Shown piece by piece: positions 2,692 through 14,947 of a stretch of 32,457 nucleotides of DNA. A program made the position numbers and the translations under genes. Each line of letters begins with the position of its first letter. The stretch's first letter is position 1. Origin of the DNA: Candidatus Uhrbacteria bacterium (GTDB taxonomy: Bacteria > Patescibacteriota > Patescibacteriia > UBA9934 > GWF2-40-263); NCBI GenBank assembly GCA_014239775.1, contig JAAZYG010000040.1:1-32457 (forward strand), read 5' to 3'. The notes under the pieces were generated by a model. The model had not been told where the DNA came from. It ran no database searches and worked only from the letters and a program-made list of their open reading frames with translations.

Positions 2692-3612
2692 TTACCGCTG
2701 TTTATTAACAGCCTTAGTTATTATTAGCCCCCACACAATTACTAACAAAACAAGTATCATCAACTGCCAAGGCAAATAAATCATTTTAATCTCGTCTACA
2801 ATCTGAGTGTCAGCACCATAATCTAGCTCTAGACCTATTAAAACAGGTCCTATCGCAAAATTTTTCCATTGTTTCTTTATGGTTCCCAATAAACCAACAT
2901 TTTCATTCTCTGTAAAATCAACTGTATATTTTCTAGTTGACCCAGGTAATACACGTCCTTTTTGTGTATTTAGATCTTTAGAAAGAAGTTCTCTGCCAAA
3001 AAAATCTACAATTTTTACTGTTCCTGTTGGTAATAAATGTACATTTCCTTGATTTTGAAGTCTTATATCGAATCTTCCATCAATCCTGAAGTTTACTTCA
3101 CCTAAATCAGAGGTGAAATCCAGCAATCCTGCTTTTTTTACTGTTGCACCTTTAATTGTCATAAGTATCAACATTGCTGTTTTAGCATCAATGATTGCAC
3201 CATTTGTTGCGACAACATCAGATGGAGTAAGTGAAACTGTAATTGCAGCATAGTGACCGCCAGCTTCAGCAAATTGTGGAACATTTATCTTATATGGAAC
3301 ATCTACCCTGCTATTTGCAGGTACAGAAACACTTCTTGAACTAAATGTAATCCACTCTGCAAGACCCTCATGATCTTCATTGTATTGAATGAACCTTGGT
3401 GAACCAGCGTCTTCTTGAGCCTCAAATTTCATGATGTCCAAGTAATAACTCTGTTCCACAGCACTGGCATTGATTATAGAAAAGCTCTTTGAGATGTTTT
3501 CACCCCTTTGTGCGTCAATTTCTGTAACCGACGGGGAAAGAGATGCTGCATCAACTGGATGAGCTATCAATAGCAGTGCAAGGAAACAAAATGTAATTAT
3601 ATTAAACTTCAT
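2692..3612 (-). CDS. Exported membrane-anchored protein, DUF916/WxL-associated-like
   Basis: A 306-residue protein with a signal peptide (hydrophobic run at residues 6-18, cleavage after VDA) and a C-terminal membrane segment (about 280-300) followed by a short basic tail, so most of it lies outside the membrane. The N-terminal part, with a run such as VPANSRVDVPYKINVPQ and then a Gly-Gly-containing AGGHYAAI stretch, resembles the beta-sandwich of DUF916-type proteins that partner surface proteins in Firmicutes; this is resemblance by eye only. It sits one base after the stop of the upstream exported gene and 12 nt before the FN3 protein, so the three are almost certainly one transcript. It may anchor or present the large FN3 protein (inference). 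Confidence 0.8.
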   Translation of the reverse strand: MKFNIITFCFLALLLIAHPVDAASLSPSVTEIDAQRGENISKSFSIINASAVEQSYYLDIMKFEAQEDAGSPRFIQYNEDHEGLAEWITFSSRSVSVPANSRVDVPYKINVPQFAEAGGHYAAITVSLTPSDVVATNGAIIDAKTAMLILMTIKGATVKKAGLLDFTSDLGEVNFRIDGRFDIRLQNQGNVHLLPTGTVKIVDFFGRELLSKDLNTQKGRVLPGSTRKYTVDFTENENVGLLGTIKKQWKNFAIGPVLIGLELDYGADTQIVDEIKMIYLPWQLMILVLLVIVWGLIITKAVNKQR

Positions 3613-3613
3613 A

Positions 3614-4525
3614 TTAGAAATTGCCCGATGCTATAAAGGTTAATGTTTGAGCATAATTTCCAGTAACAGTGTTTGAATCTATTGCAGCTTTTAGAGTAAT
3701 GAAGTTTCTTTCACCATATGCTGCAGTAGTCGTACTTACAACATCCTGTCCATTTACAGTAATTGCTGTATCCTCTGTATCAAACGTAGATGACACAATG
3801 TCTAAATCAGACGATTTTGCACCATATTCTTCTGAACCTGAACTTATTACACCGTCTGAAACATCATCGATTTCTGAAGTTGCTGTGCGAAAATCACCAT
3901 CTTCAATTACTTGAACAACATATCCGTTACTATTCACTGAAGTTACCTCAAAACCTATAACACCCGTCTTTACAAGTGTGGTATCGAGCGAATCAAACGC
4001 CAGTGCATTTCCATCCAACTGATACAAATAGTCATTGGTACCATCAATTATAGGAACTGCACCTGAATTTACCATTGTGTCTAGCGTGATTGTGCCAACA
4101 CCTATGGAAGAAATCCTACCCATAGCCGATATCTGTGCTTGACCAAGATCTTGTACAAACACCACATAATCACCTACAGCCAATCCTGCAGTGTCTGTGG
4201 TAACTGTCTTTCCAGCAAAAGCTGTAACAGGCTTAACAGACGTTGTGTCCTGAATAAAAAGATCGAATGTGATTATTTGGTCAAATATTCCAGCTCTGTA
4301 CCCTGATTGCTCTATGTATGAGGCGCTTGTAGCTTCTTTTCCCGCAGTTGAGGAAATAGAGTCTCTTAATATGTAGGTAGCAGATGATGAAGTATCAGAA
4401 CCCCCGGTAGAGATAGTATCCCACCTTATTTGATAGTTTGTTGAATTCATCTGGGCACTAGCAATGCCCACATATATAAAAAACCCCACAAACGCAAAGG
4501 ATGTAATTAACTTAAATCTTTTCAT
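3614..4525 (-). CDS. Exported protein of unknown function
   Basis: A 303-residue protein starting at ATG 4525, with a clear signal peptide (KRFK, hydrophobic stretch, cleavage near ASA-QM). The mature N-terminus carries a repeated Ser/Thr-rich pattern built on NYQIRWD, SSATYILRDS and SASYIEQSGYRAG, about 20 residues apart. The rest is rich in Thr, Ser, Asp and Val, has no membrane segment and ends in a beta-like LTFIASGNF. I do not recognise a family with certainty. It is first in the exported three-gene operon, with a consensus-like promoter just upstream and a short leader containing AAAGG right before the start. Probably a secreted or surface-assembled structural protein; function unknown. 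Confidence 0.75.
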   Translation of the reverse strand: MKRFKLITSFAFVGFFIYVGIASAQMNSTNYQIRWDTISTGGSDTSSSATYILRDSISSTAGKEATSASYIEQSGYRAGIFDQIITFDLFIQDTTSVKPVTAFAGKTVTTDTAGLAVGDYVVFVQDLGQAQISAMGRISSIGVGTITLDTMVNSGAVPIIDGTNDYLYQLDGNALAFDSLDTTLVKTGVIGFEVTSVNSNGYVVQVIEDGDFRTATSEIDDVSDGVISSGSEEYGAKSSDLDIVSSTFDTEDTAITVNGQDVVSTTTAAYGERNFITLKAAIDSNTVTGNYAQTLTFIASGNF

Positions 4526-9886: not shown

Positions 9887-9912
9887 AAAAGAACCTCTTG
9901 TAAGGTTCTTTT
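9887..9912 (-). terminator. Intrinsic terminator of polA-holA
   Basis: AAAAGAACCT (9887-9896) pairs with AGGTTCTTTT (9903-9912) and reads into TTTTATGTTT on the minus strand. Its arm touches the holA stop codon (9911-9913). Confidence 0.8.
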
Positions 9913-10900: not shown

Positions 10901-13537
10901 TTACTTATTCCAAGTTTTCATCTCACCCCAATTGTCTCCATACTCCACGTCAACAACAAGAGGCACGTCAAATGATACAACATCTTCCATTGATTTTTTA
11001 ATGCCTAAAACTGCTTTCTCTACATCTTTTTCACCACACTCAAACACCAATTCATCATGAACCTGCATTAAAACCTTAATATCAAGCCCGCTTTTTTCCA
11101 CCCATTTATCAACCACAACCATTGCCATCTTCATTATATCTGATGCTGCACCTTGAATAGGCATATTAATTGCCATACGCTCTGCTTGTGCAATCAATTG
11201 AGGCATTCCCGAATTTATTTCTGGAAAATATCTTCTTCTACCAAACATTGTGGTCACAAATCCTTCCTCGTGTGCCTTATTTTTTGTTTCATCTAAATAA
11301 TCTTTAATTGAGCTATGTATCTCAAAATATTTTTCAATAAACATCTTTGCTTCTGCAAAAGTCATGTCTGTTGAACGAGAAAGTGACCTTGCACCCATTC
11401 CATATATAATACCGAAATTAATAGCCTTGGCAGAATATCGCTGTTCTTTTGTTATGTCTATTTCATGAATACCCAAAACCTCAGATGCTGTTCTTTTGTG
11501 AATATCAGCCCCTTCATTAAAAGCATCGATAAATGGTTTGTCCTGTGCAACCACAGAAACCAACCTTAATTCTATTTGTGAATAATCTGCTGCAATCAAT
11601 TTTTTACCTTTTGAAGCAATAAATGTATTTCTTATTTTTCTACCAAGCTCTGTTTTAATTGGTATATTTTGTAAATTTGGCTCAGACGAGGAAAGTCTTC
11701 CTGTTGCTGTTACTGTTTGATTATAAGTTGTATGTATTCGACCGTCTGATTCAACCAGTCTTGGCAAAGCATCAACATATGTAGACTGTAATTTTGTAAG
11801 CTCACGATATTTAGAAATTAATGGAATAATTTCATGTTCATCCCATAATTTTTCTAGTTCTGAAGCAGCTGTAGAATAACCTGTTTTTGTTTTTTTAATT
11901 TTTTTTGTTGGCAACCCCATTTTTTCAAATAAAATTTCAGAGAGTTGAAGTGGGGAATTAACATTAAAATCTATCTTTGCTAGATGTCTAATTTTTTTAT
12001 CCAACTTTTCTATTTCGACTTTAAGTTCTTTTGAAAATTTTTCTAAAGATTTTGCATTCAATTCAATTCCAACTTTTTCCATGTTATACAAAATAGTAAC
12101 TAACGGCATTTCCATTTCAATAAATATCTTTAACATCTCAGCATCATTAAGATTATTTATGAGCTTGTTTGATAAATCAGGTAAAATAAAAACACTCTGT
12201 GCAAACTTTTTATAATCTGCATCCTTATTAAAACTCTCTGGAACTTCTTCTATTTTCTTATTAAGTACTTTTTGTGCAACAGAACTTAGATCATATGAAC
12301 GAGAACCTGAGTTGAGTAGGTATGCGGCAATTTTTGTATCAAATGATATGTTTATACCAAACCCAATTTCATGTAGTAAATTCTTTAAATCGTGTGTTAT
12401 AACCTTTTTTACATGGTTTAAATCTTCTTTAATCAAATTAAGATGGTTTTTTGTTGGATTTGGTATAACCATAGTCTTGCATCCATCAGAAATACCTATA
12501 GCAGCCAATGTCCCGCCAAATAAATCAGCTTGCTGCTCAGCAATTAATACACCAACCACATCTTTAGAAAGTGTCTTTATAAATTCTGTAAGTTTTTTTT
12601 CATCACGCACTATCTCAACTATATTTTTATTGGTTTTTATATTCTGAATTTTTTTTTCAACCACTACACCACCATATTTTCTCAGTAATGTTCTAAATTC
12701 TAATTTAGAAAACATTTCAAGTAGTTTTTCTGAATCCCTTCCCTTTAATTTTGTTTTTGAAAAATCTGGATCAAGTTTTATATCTAATATTAACTTAACT
12801 AAATACTTTGAATCCATTGCAGCTTGTTTATTTCCCCTAAGTTTCTTTGCAGTTTTTTCTACAATCTCCTCTTTTTCAAGTGCTTTATATACTCCCTCTA
12901 TTGAACCGTAATCTTTTATTAAATTTGTAGCAGTCTTTTCTCCAACACCTTTAATCCCCGGTATGTTATCAGACGGATCACCTCGCAATGCTTTATAATC
13001 TATCAATTGATCTGGTGTTAATTCATACCTATCAAACACAGCTTGTGTATCATAGGTTTTTGTTACAGAGATTCCTTTTTGAAAAAAAATTATATCAGTA
13101 CTTTTGTTAACAAGTTGAAGTGAATCTAAATCACCTGTAACAATAAGTGTGTGAAAATTATTTTTTTCAGCATCTTTTGCAAGAGTGGCAATAACGTCAT
13201 CCGCCTCAAATCCCTTTGCATCAATTGATACCACACCATACGCTTCTAACAACTCTCTGATGATTGGAATCTGGTCGTATAACTCTTGCTCCTTCTTTTT
13301 TCTGTGACCTTTATATTCTTTATAAAATTCATGACGAAACGTCTTTCCTGGCAAATCCCAAGCAACAGCAATGTTGTCTGGCTTATACTTTTCAAGCATC
13401 TTTTCCATCACCATTGCAAAACCATAAGCAGCGTTAACAACCAGACCATCTTTTGTAATAAGTGGTGGCAAAGCGTGCCAAGCACGGTGCAAAAGAGCAT
13501 TTCCGTCCAGTGCTAAAAATGTTGGTTTTTTTGACAT
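10901..13537 (-). CDS. polA: DNA polymerase I (5' nuclease and polymerase; proofreading domain degenerate)
   Basis: An 878-residue family A polymerase. Residues 1 to about 290 are the 5'-3' nuclease (FLALDGNALLHRAWH at the start, GFEADDVIATLA, TGDLDSLQLV, GDPSDNIPGIKGVGEKTA). Residues about 300-470 have the 3'-5' exonuclease fold but lack its metal-binding acids: where family members carry DxE, this protein reads VGVLIAEQQ, so proofreading is probably absent. The polymerase domain has motif A (AADYSQIELRL), motif B (RYSAKAINFGIIYG) and motif C (HDE at 827-829). It fills gaps and removes RNA primers. It is transcribed with holA. The upstream TATGCT (-10-like) lies so close to the ATG that the mRNA leader is only a few nucleotides. 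Confidence 0.96.
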   Translation of the reverse strand: MSKKPTFLALDGNALLHRAWHALPPLITKDGLVVNAAYGFAMVMEKMLEKYKPDNIAVAWDLPGKTFRHEFYKEYKGHRKKKEQELYDQIPIIRELLEAYGVVSIDAKGFEADDVIATLAKDAEKNNFHTLIVTGDLDSLQLVNKSTDIIFFQKGISVTKTYDTQAVFDRYELTPDQLIDYKALRGDPSDNIPGIKGVGEKTATNLIKDYGSIEGVYKALEKEEIVEKTAKKLRGNKQAAMDSKYLVKLILDIKLDPDFSKTKLKGRDSEKLLEMFSKLEFRTLLRKYGGVVVEKKIQNIKTNKNIVEIVRDEKKLTEFIKTLSKDVVGVLIAEQQADLFGGTLAAIGISDGCKTMVIPNPTKNHLNLIKEDLNHVKKVITHDLKNLLHEIGFGINISFDTKIAAYLLNSGSRSYDLSSVAQKVLNKKIEEVPESFNKDADYKKFAQSVFILPDLSNKLINNLNDAEMLKIFIEMEMPLVTILYNMEKVGIELNAKSLEKFSKELKVEIEKLDKKIRHLAKIDFNVNSPLQLSEILFEKMGLPTKKIKKTKTGYSTAASELEKLWDEHEIIPLISKYRELTKLQSTYVDALPRLVESDGRIHTTYNQTVTATGRLSSSEPNLQNIPIKTELGRKIRNTFIASKGKKLIAADYSQIELRLVSVVAQDKPFIDAFNEGADIHKRTASEVLGIHEIDITKEQRYSAKAINFGIIYGMGARSLSRSTDMTFAEAKMFIEKYFEIHSSIKDYLDETKNKAHEEGFVTTMFGRRRYFPEINSGMPQLIAQAERMAINMPIQGAASDIMKMAMVVVDKWVEKSGLDIKVLMQVHDELVFECGEKDVEKAVLGIKKSMEDVVSFDVPLVVDVEYGDNWGEMKTWNK

Positions 13538-13570: not shown

Positions 13571-13617
13571 AAAAACAAAAAAAAAGCCGCGCATCATCCT
13601 TACGGAATCTGCGCGGC
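13571..13617 (-). terminator. Strong intrinsic terminator of the high-G+C cassette
   Basis: On the minus strand GCCGCGCA (13617-13610) and TGCGCGGC (13593-13586) form a perfect 8-bp stem with a 16-nt loop, followed by nine T and more T-rich sequence. It is unusually G+C-rich for this window. Confidence 0.9.
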
Positions 13618-13621
13618 AGAA

Positions 13622-13672
13622 ACGTTAGTTTGAAACTAACGAGTTGATTAACAAGCCGTGGCTTGCTAATCA
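13622..13672. repeat. Two tandem hairpins in the cassette 3' region
   Basis: CGTTAGTTT-G-AAACTAACG (13623-13641) and a hairpin at 13645-13672 (TGATTA/TAATCA and CAAGCC/GGCTTG) lie between the stop of the 360-residue gene and its terminator. The second includes the stop codon. Together with the terminator they give three hairpins in a row, which could protect the mRNA 3' end. Confidence 0.7.
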
Positions 13673-14752
13673 GGCATAGGCAACAGCAACATTGTCGGAA
13701 GTGGCAGCGTTTGCCATTTCGGCAAAATAACTACCAAACTTCTCAACCGTGGAAAAAGCAACCACGTTGGAACCGCCGTTCTTGTCGACCTGAGCAACGA
13801 AGCCCTGACCATCAACAGCCTGAACGTTCAAACGAACGATCGGAGCACTATTGTCCTTGACCTTGGTCAAGAGAACGGCCTTATCAATATCGGTGGTCGT
13901 GCTGACAATGTCTCCATTATCATTCCAGCTGAACTGAACCGGAATAAACCGATACTTGCTATCCTCAAGAGTGAGGAGAGTGGAAGCCTTGGCACCATCA
14001 ACAATCGCGATCTCAGAGATATTACCCTCTTCAATCTGGGTTCCATTCCAATCGATCTCCTGAACTTCTCCAGTCAGATAATCAATGATCTGCTTGCTGG
14101 TGGTCGCATAGAGCATGTCGCTCTGATAGGTCGCGATTGCAAAAACCTCAGTACCAATAACGGCAGTACGTGCCTGAACCTCGGAGGTGTCAAACGGCAC
14201 ACTGATGCTCTTGAAGGTCGACGGAACTCCGTCAATCTGAGCAAGAATCGTTCGTTCACCCTCACCGCCATACATAAGCATGGTTTGTGCTTGAGTACGA
14301 CTGCACTTAAGCGTACGATCATTTCGATACAGAGTGTCAAACAGAGTATTGAAAGCCTGCTGTGTAACCTCGGTGAGCTTAACCGCGCCTGCATCAATCA
14401 CAGCCAAATTAAGACTGGTGTCCATCTGTGTGACCATGTGAACGTAGTTGTAGCCATCGAGCTGCAACGAGTTCAACTGATCCTTGTTGATGGTCGTCTT
14501 GACCTGAGCAATGTCCGTCTTGGTGTCGCTGGTGGACAAATAGACCATGTGAAGTCGCGCGTCGTTGTTCTCATCCTCGGAAATTCCGATAGAGATGATA
14601 CGAGCGGGATTCCATGCCTCAAGCTTGATCTGATCAGTGATCGACTCAACAACCTGAGTAAGGTCACCTTCTACGGTATTCAGGTGAACACCGAAGATTC
14701 CGGTCTTGATCTTTGGACTAATTGCCAGCCAATGGTTTTTAATAAGGTTCAT
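13670..14752 (-). CDS. Protein of unknown family in a high-G+C stand-alone cassette
   Basis: A 360-residue, apparently cytoplasmic protein with no signal peptide or membrane segment; predicted mixed alpha/beta. I do not recognise a family. The start ATG 14752 is fixed by a near-perfect Shine-Dalgarno AGGAGGG 4 nt upstream, far stronger than elsewhere in the window. Base composition stands out: positions 14161-14220 are 35 of 60 G or C, while rpsT at 7681-7740 is 20 of 60, and codons favour C- and G-ending forms. It has a consensus promoter, a structured leader of about 115 nt and a strong terminator. Either it is a very highly expressed gene with selected codons or it was acquired by transfer. 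It ends in TGA. The ORF is certain, the function open. Confidence 0.82.
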   Translation of the reverse strand: MNLIKNHWLAISPKIKTGIFGVHLNTVEGDLTQVVESITDQIKLEAWNPARIISIGISEDENNDARLHMVYLSTSDTKTDIAQVKTTINKDQLNSLQLDGYNYVHMVTQMDTSLNLAVIDAGAVKLTEVTQQAFNTLFDTLYRNDRTLKCSRTQAQTMLMYGGEGERTILAQIDGVPSTFKSISVPFDTSEVQARTAVIGTEVFAIATYQSDMLYATTSKQIIDYLTGEVQEIDWNGTQIEEGNISEIAIVDGAKASTLLTLEDSKYRFIPVQFSWNDNGDIVSTTTDIDKAVLLTKVKDNSAPIVRLNVQAVDGQGFVAQVDKNGGSNVVAFSTVEKFGSYFAEMANAATSDNVAVAYA

Positions 14753-14868
14753 TTTTCCCTCCTAAATGGGATTAATGGTTTTAACACCGCCCCAAGTCAC
14801 CACGACTTGGATTGGTACGAATTTTCCGAAGATATTCCGGAGACTCACTCAAAAAATTTAAGTGAACG
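14753..14868 (-). promoter_or_regulatory. Structured 5' leader of the 360-residue gene
   Basis: About 115 nt from the predicted start near 14868 to the ATG. It contains a perfect 7-bp hairpin CCAAGTC/GACTTGG (14792-14810), a weaker CACT/AGTG hairpin near 14847-14864, and the Shine-Dalgarno AGGAGGG at 14763-14757. It could stabilise the mRNA or control translation; no known riboswitch is recognised. Confidence 0.5.
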
Positions 14869-14874
14869 GGCCGA

Positions 14875-14903
14875 AATATACACCCCCCATAAAAACATGT
14901 CAA
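14875..14903 (-). promoter_or_regulatory. Consensus promoter of the 360-residue gene
   Basis: On the minus strand TTGACA (14903-14898), a 17-bp spacer with a G-run, and TATATT (14880-14875). It is the closest match to the sigma-70 consensus in the window. Confidence 0.85.
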
Positions 14904-14929
14904 GGGTGGATAAGTACTAGGTCTAATTA

Positions 14930-14947
14930 TTTACTAAACTTAGTAAA
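14930..14947. repeat. 18-bp palindrome, operator-like
   Basis: TTTACTAA-AC-TTAGTAAA is a perfect inverted repeat centred about 70 bp upstream of the predicted start of the 360-residue gene. It has the same layout as the palindrome at 4578-4595. A one-mismatch DnaA-box-like GGTGGATAA lies at 14905-14914. Confidence 0.5.

Follow-up and report, generated by a model that had tools for sequence, protein, structure and literature searches.

The window analysed here, a stretch of 32,457 nucleotides from a Candidatus Uhrbacteria bacterium, contains on its minus strand a 360-codon gene (13670-14752, stop TGA) that is real, undescribed and family-wide, with a surprising codon usage. It is furnished with a promoter of the rRNA class with conserved first transcribed bases, a strong Shine-Dalgarno sequence, a terminator of its own and a push towards G or C at third codon positions, and its protein is under purifying selection and diverges far faster than polA. 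Searches of the literature yielded no description of the gene. A first-pass annotation of this DNA had singled out the region as a stand-alone high-G+C cassette encoding an unrecognised protein, and as the best candidate here for an undescribed element; both descriptions are upheld by our analysis. In the direction of transcription, the cassette and its downstream neighbour consist of the following features:

14875-14903, minus strand: promoter, with the -35 hexamer TTGACA at 14898-14903, a 17-bp spacer and the -10 hexamer TATATT at 14875-14880; homologues show the same spacing.
14864-14874, minus strand: G+C-rich discriminator and first transcribed bases TCGGCCCGTTC, common to the homologues and like those of 16S rRNA promoters.
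14753-14868, minus strand: structured 5' leader from a predicted transcription start (MFE -34.2 kcal/mol, z -2.8).
14757-14763, minus strand: Shine-Dalgarno sequence AGGAGGG, 4 nt upstream of the ATG.
13670-14752, minus strand: ORF of the unrecognised protein, 360 codons, GC3 0.55, stop TGA.
13645-13672, minus strand: hairpin 1, from folding, containing the stop codon.
13623-13641, minus strand: hairpin 2, from folding.
13577-13617, minus strand: hairpin 3 (13586-13617) and a U tract, together an intrinsic terminator, from folding (z -4.95 for this part alone).
10901-13537, minus strand: polA by sequence, the conserved downstream neighbour; a polA cluster is present at 14 of 15 homologue loci.

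The promoter and the Shine-Dalgarno sequence are as originally described; the former agrees with the consensus at 11 of 12 bases, and the extended pattern TTGAC-N18-TANNNT-NNNGCNCGTTC finds an exact match at 14864-14903. Folding bears out both the structured leader, which is 116 nt long, and the three hairpins at the 3' end of the gene (-45 kcal/mol, z -7.0), the last of which is G+C-rich and followed by the U tract. Hairpin 3 was not among the terminators listed by a simple terminator scan because its stem is interrupted.

The compositional peculiarity of the gene is pronounced within its own genome. The stretch 14161-14220 has 35 G or C in 60 positions, a value reached by 3 of the 540 such bins in the window, and the G+C content of the gene is 0.481 against 0.350 in the remainder of the window. 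Among 142 ORFs sampled over 203 kb of the 0.87 Mb genome, no other reaches so high a GC3 (0.551; sample mean 0.230, sd 0.044; z 7.3), and its preference for NNG codons exceeds the mean by 4.8 sd. In the same sample its GC1 and GC2 lie close to the genome mean, so that what sets the gene apart is its synonymous third position. The sole sampled ORF that approaches it in GC3 (L179, on contig C19 of the genome G000, the window's own) is accompanied by ORFs resembling homoserine kinase and formate dehydrogenase, as read from sequence only; the composition of that contig is unlike that of the genome, and it is probably misbinned.

Homologues were detected in 12 of 60 genomes searched (the window's own included), all 12 in the family of the window genome. 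An alignment built from these first homologues reached 16 of the 43 genomes of the family, and a larger alignment detected it in 17 of the 73 genomes of the order, all 17 again in this Uhrbacteria family (17/43); in the other 26 family genomes no homologue was detectable with the larger alignment. The homologues are about 15-30% identical to the window protein. Scanning genome and viral contigs for patterns taken from the single sequence drew in no relatives, and broad alignments offered no stretch conserved enough for such a scan; a pattern from a narrow alignment recovered four loci, three of them under the name Candidatus Uhrbacteria, and no relative in viral contigs. At 14 of 15 mapped loci the homologue is situated upstream of polA on the same strand. 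There the cluster of the window ORF at 9911, which we read as holA, usually comes next, and a TrmB-like regulator, recognised by its sequence, often stands in between.

We used polA as a marker to read the upstream region in further genomes. Many of these regions contain an ORF of 250-440 codons on the polA strand with a GC3 of 0.76-0.99, most with a similar promoter, and such ORFs also occur in the other three families that make up the order. Profile comparison with these ORFs gave 97.6% for G016, 96.6% for G001, 62.9% for a second ORF of G001, 54.8% for G036 and less than 11% for the others; thus the relationship is visible by this means for only some of them, most being too diverged to align. 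A single fixed GC3 test at the polA locus was passed by 25 of 48 loci within the order and by 4 of the 17 from elsewhere. The test undercounts, since it misses homologues whose GC3 excess is mild (G017, G021 and G030); nor is it fully specific, as two of the four passing loci outside the order have very high GC3 and belong to one family (G084, G120), and the other two resemble ordinary genes. Beyond the family, orthology is suggested by place, composition and promoter. Some members of the family have no ORF of this kind close to polA. Second copies or further members were also observed (L014 563-1243 and 1362-2462; L044 and L086 in G016; L087 in G001; L254 in G025), and the extra copies are in tandem in G017 and G001. 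The first-pass annotation had held that genome-like codon usage, or homologues at one locus in all relatives with a known housekeeping function, would count against its reading. The codon usage proved unlike that of the genome; relatives do carry the gene at the same locus, albeit not all of them and with no known housekeeping function.

The homologues are GC3 outliers in genomes of very different G+C content, with values from 0.47 to 1.00. At the upper extreme, none of the 368 codons of the G015 homologue ends in A or T, while the EF-Tu gene of that genome has T or A at 81% of its four-fold sites; the three homologues named above show only a mild excess. The preference extends to termination: TAG closes 12 of the 15 homologues, compared with 35 of the 167 neighbours (p 7e-6), the TGA of the window gene being one of the exceptions. 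EF-Tu genes from 13 of these genomes have a GC3 of 0.23-0.68 and the stop TAA. At four-fold sites T or A is favoured by EF-Tu, and in most genomes by ribosomal genes, whereas the polA-side gene favours C and then G. In the A/T-rich window genome T still comes first in the gene (0.43), and the share of C climbs from 0.07 to 0.29. In its choice of codons this gene hence differs from the growth genes.

This bears directly on whether the gene is simply optimised for translation, its top rank in expression calling for the best codons. The strong promoter, Shine-Dalgarno sequence and terminator are what such a gene should possess, and the prevalence of C over G at four-fold sites fits Watson-Crick decoding by G34 tRNAs, of which several occur among the tRNAs listed, in part, from small sets of 37 and 34 genes. 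However, the EF-Tu and ribosomal protein genes mostly end their four-fold codons in T or A, and EF-Tu stops with TAA, both contrary to this gene. In the comparison with ribosomal genes proposed earlier as a check, the codon adaptation (CAI) of the homologues is mostly low and below background, with G031 and G014 as high exceptions. We therefore regard simple optimisation as unlikely, although it is the strongest of the alternatives.

The promoters of the homologues have their hexamers 17 bp apart and next bases like TCCGCCCGTTCG. The hexamers alone are not rare, being found within 250 nt of 37 of 289 control genes; the extended pattern, matched 44 times in the 73 genomes where its reversed control scored 6, is both rare and real. 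In the 16S rRNA promoters of these genomes the hexamers and spacing are identical and the discriminator is likewise G+C-rich, which places the promoter of the polA-side gene in the rRNA class and predicts that it is regulated by growth. The extended promoter with a CGTTC start was also seen before rpsB-, upp- and prfA-like genes, so named from their sequences, and before the gene of an unrecognised 433-aa protein in G018 (the loci of the additional genes are L251, L256, L258-L260, L261 and L263); these could possibly form a growth-linked regulon. Separately, a gene for a secreted-looking protein (window 3614-4525, minus strand; L014 10854-11759; L019 15342-16247; L021 near 16183) has a promoter region (TTGACTACATTTAGTATTCATGGTA...) that is near-identical in several Uhrbacteria genomes, a degree of conservation beyond the needs of a consensus promoter.

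With regard to the protein, dN/dS is 0.21 and 0.19 in the two closest pairs of homologues, and this, together with nearly normal first and second codon positions, indicates a real, constrained protein with the bias confined to synonymous sites. Arg R167 is invariant in the alignment and Trp W235 nearly so. Sequence searches of Pfam, NCBIfam, PHROGs, PADLOC and PDB returned no convincing family match, in agreement with its original description as unrecognised, and no internal repeats were found. We also considered a known phage or anti-phage defence protein and rejected it: the PHROG and PADLOC matches were weak and each confined to one member, and the pattern scan of viral contigs was empty. 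AlphaFold returned a pLDDT of 46 for the window protein and 71.5 for one relative, whose model is low only at 70-83 and after 285 and has an alpha/beta start and a beta-rich remainder. The nearest solved folds to this model are propellers, at weak scores (TM-scores up to about 0.33, Z up to 8.4) that may reflect just a common arrangement. The C termini of many homologues are Ala-rich (FAA, LAA, AIA, AYA), recalling C-terminal degrons.

A surface or secreted protein, such as an S-layer protein or adhesin, would account for fast evolution combined with strong expression, and the divergence is indeed fast, with a mean pairwise identity over 14 genomes of 0.26 for the gene product against 0.63 for polA; a few candidates also have a short hydrophobic N terminus. 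Nevertheless, by N-terminal hydropathy the window protein, as previously described, and most homologues appear to have neither a signal peptide nor a membrane segment, and no conserved one was seen. We hold a surface location to be rather improbable.

The messages of G000, G018, G021 and G023 are more structured per base than those of sampled neighbours, largely through their G+C content. Against synonymous shuffles the window gene has a z of -5.35, the second lowest of 42 genes, and most relatives fall within the control range, their folding not clearly exceeding that due to codon composition. The lowest value among the controls (z -5.43) belongs to another gene for a secreted-looking protein in the window (2692-3612, minus strand). 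One might suppose that local mutation, or G+C-biased gene conversion, acts on a strongly transcribed unit with no selection on the message. The excess is greatest at synonymous sites, extends to the stop codon (TAG over TAA), lies partly in untranslated parts and is low ahead of the promoter in several members, as such a process would have it. But C clearly exceeds G at four-fold sites, TGA has not been gained alongside TAG, and tuf and the ribosomal operon, which are also strongly transcribed, show no such effect; we accordingly give this explanation still less credence than a surface protein.

Recent acquisition of a foreign gene that retains the G+C of its donor, which the first-pass annotation had entertained, agrees with the gene being a compositional outlier with no family match, but is refuted by one ancestral locus in the family with the same place and strand beside polA at 14 of 15 loci. 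Also against it are relatives that share the promoter and the codon peculiarity although their genomes differ widely in G+C, so that the imprint of a donor ought to have been lost by now, and a composition near normal at GC1 and GC2.

We read the gene as old, vertically inherited and monocistronic, with a fixed place upstream of polA in Uhrbacteria. The mechanism we prefer, tentatively, is strong transcription, with a message kept G+C-rich and an abundant soluble product. The gene would be transcribed at a high, growth-linked rate; the G+C at its synonymous sites would be kept because there is an advantage in a structured, long-lived mRNA or, alternatively, in decoding by G34 tRNAs that are less used by EF-Tu and ribosomal genes. 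The product would be an abundant, soluble, beta-rich cytosolic protein, perhaps propeller-like, with a lineage-specific structural or binding role. High expression is plausible from the signals around the gene; several observations weigh against the combined mechanism. The codons of EF-Tu and ribosomal genes, by which strong expression is commonly judged, are mostly the opposite ones; folding beyond codon composition stands out in the window gene alone; the GC3 excess is mild in three members; 26 of the 43 family genomes yielded no homologue; and the likeness to propellers is weak. A bolder and more doubtful proposal is that the codons of the gene form a set almost complementary to the one used by the growth genes, so that its translation would draw on tRNAs of its own within the pool or on an unusually stable message, with place, promoter and codon set conserved and the protein sequence free to change almost entirely.

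A gene without A/T-ending codons, as in G015, breaks the customary coupling of codon choice to signals of strong expression. Should its message be abundant, these symbiont-like bacteria have a major unrecognised protein; if it is not, another kind of selection acts on their synonymous sites. The gene also offers a way to test how small tRNA sets are employed in uncultured Patescibacteria, and it exemplifies a gene that can be traced by place, promoter and composition once its sequence has diverged past recognition.

Among known systems, beta-propeller proteins (WD40, NHL, TolB) provide the best fold matches of one relative's model; the gene product differs from them in having neither a sequence repeat nor a family match, and the fold scores are weak. 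Growth-regulated rRNA-type sigma-70 promoters (TTGACA-17-TATAAT) resemble the promoter of the gene in hexamers, spacing and G+C-rich discriminator; unlike them, the window promoter drives a single protein-coding gene. With the taxonomically restricted, or orphan, fast-evolving genes of bacteria it shares rapid divergence and the finding of sequence homologues in one family only, and it is distinguished from these by its fixed locus, its conserved promoter and a third-position G/C bias that opposes that of the growth genes.
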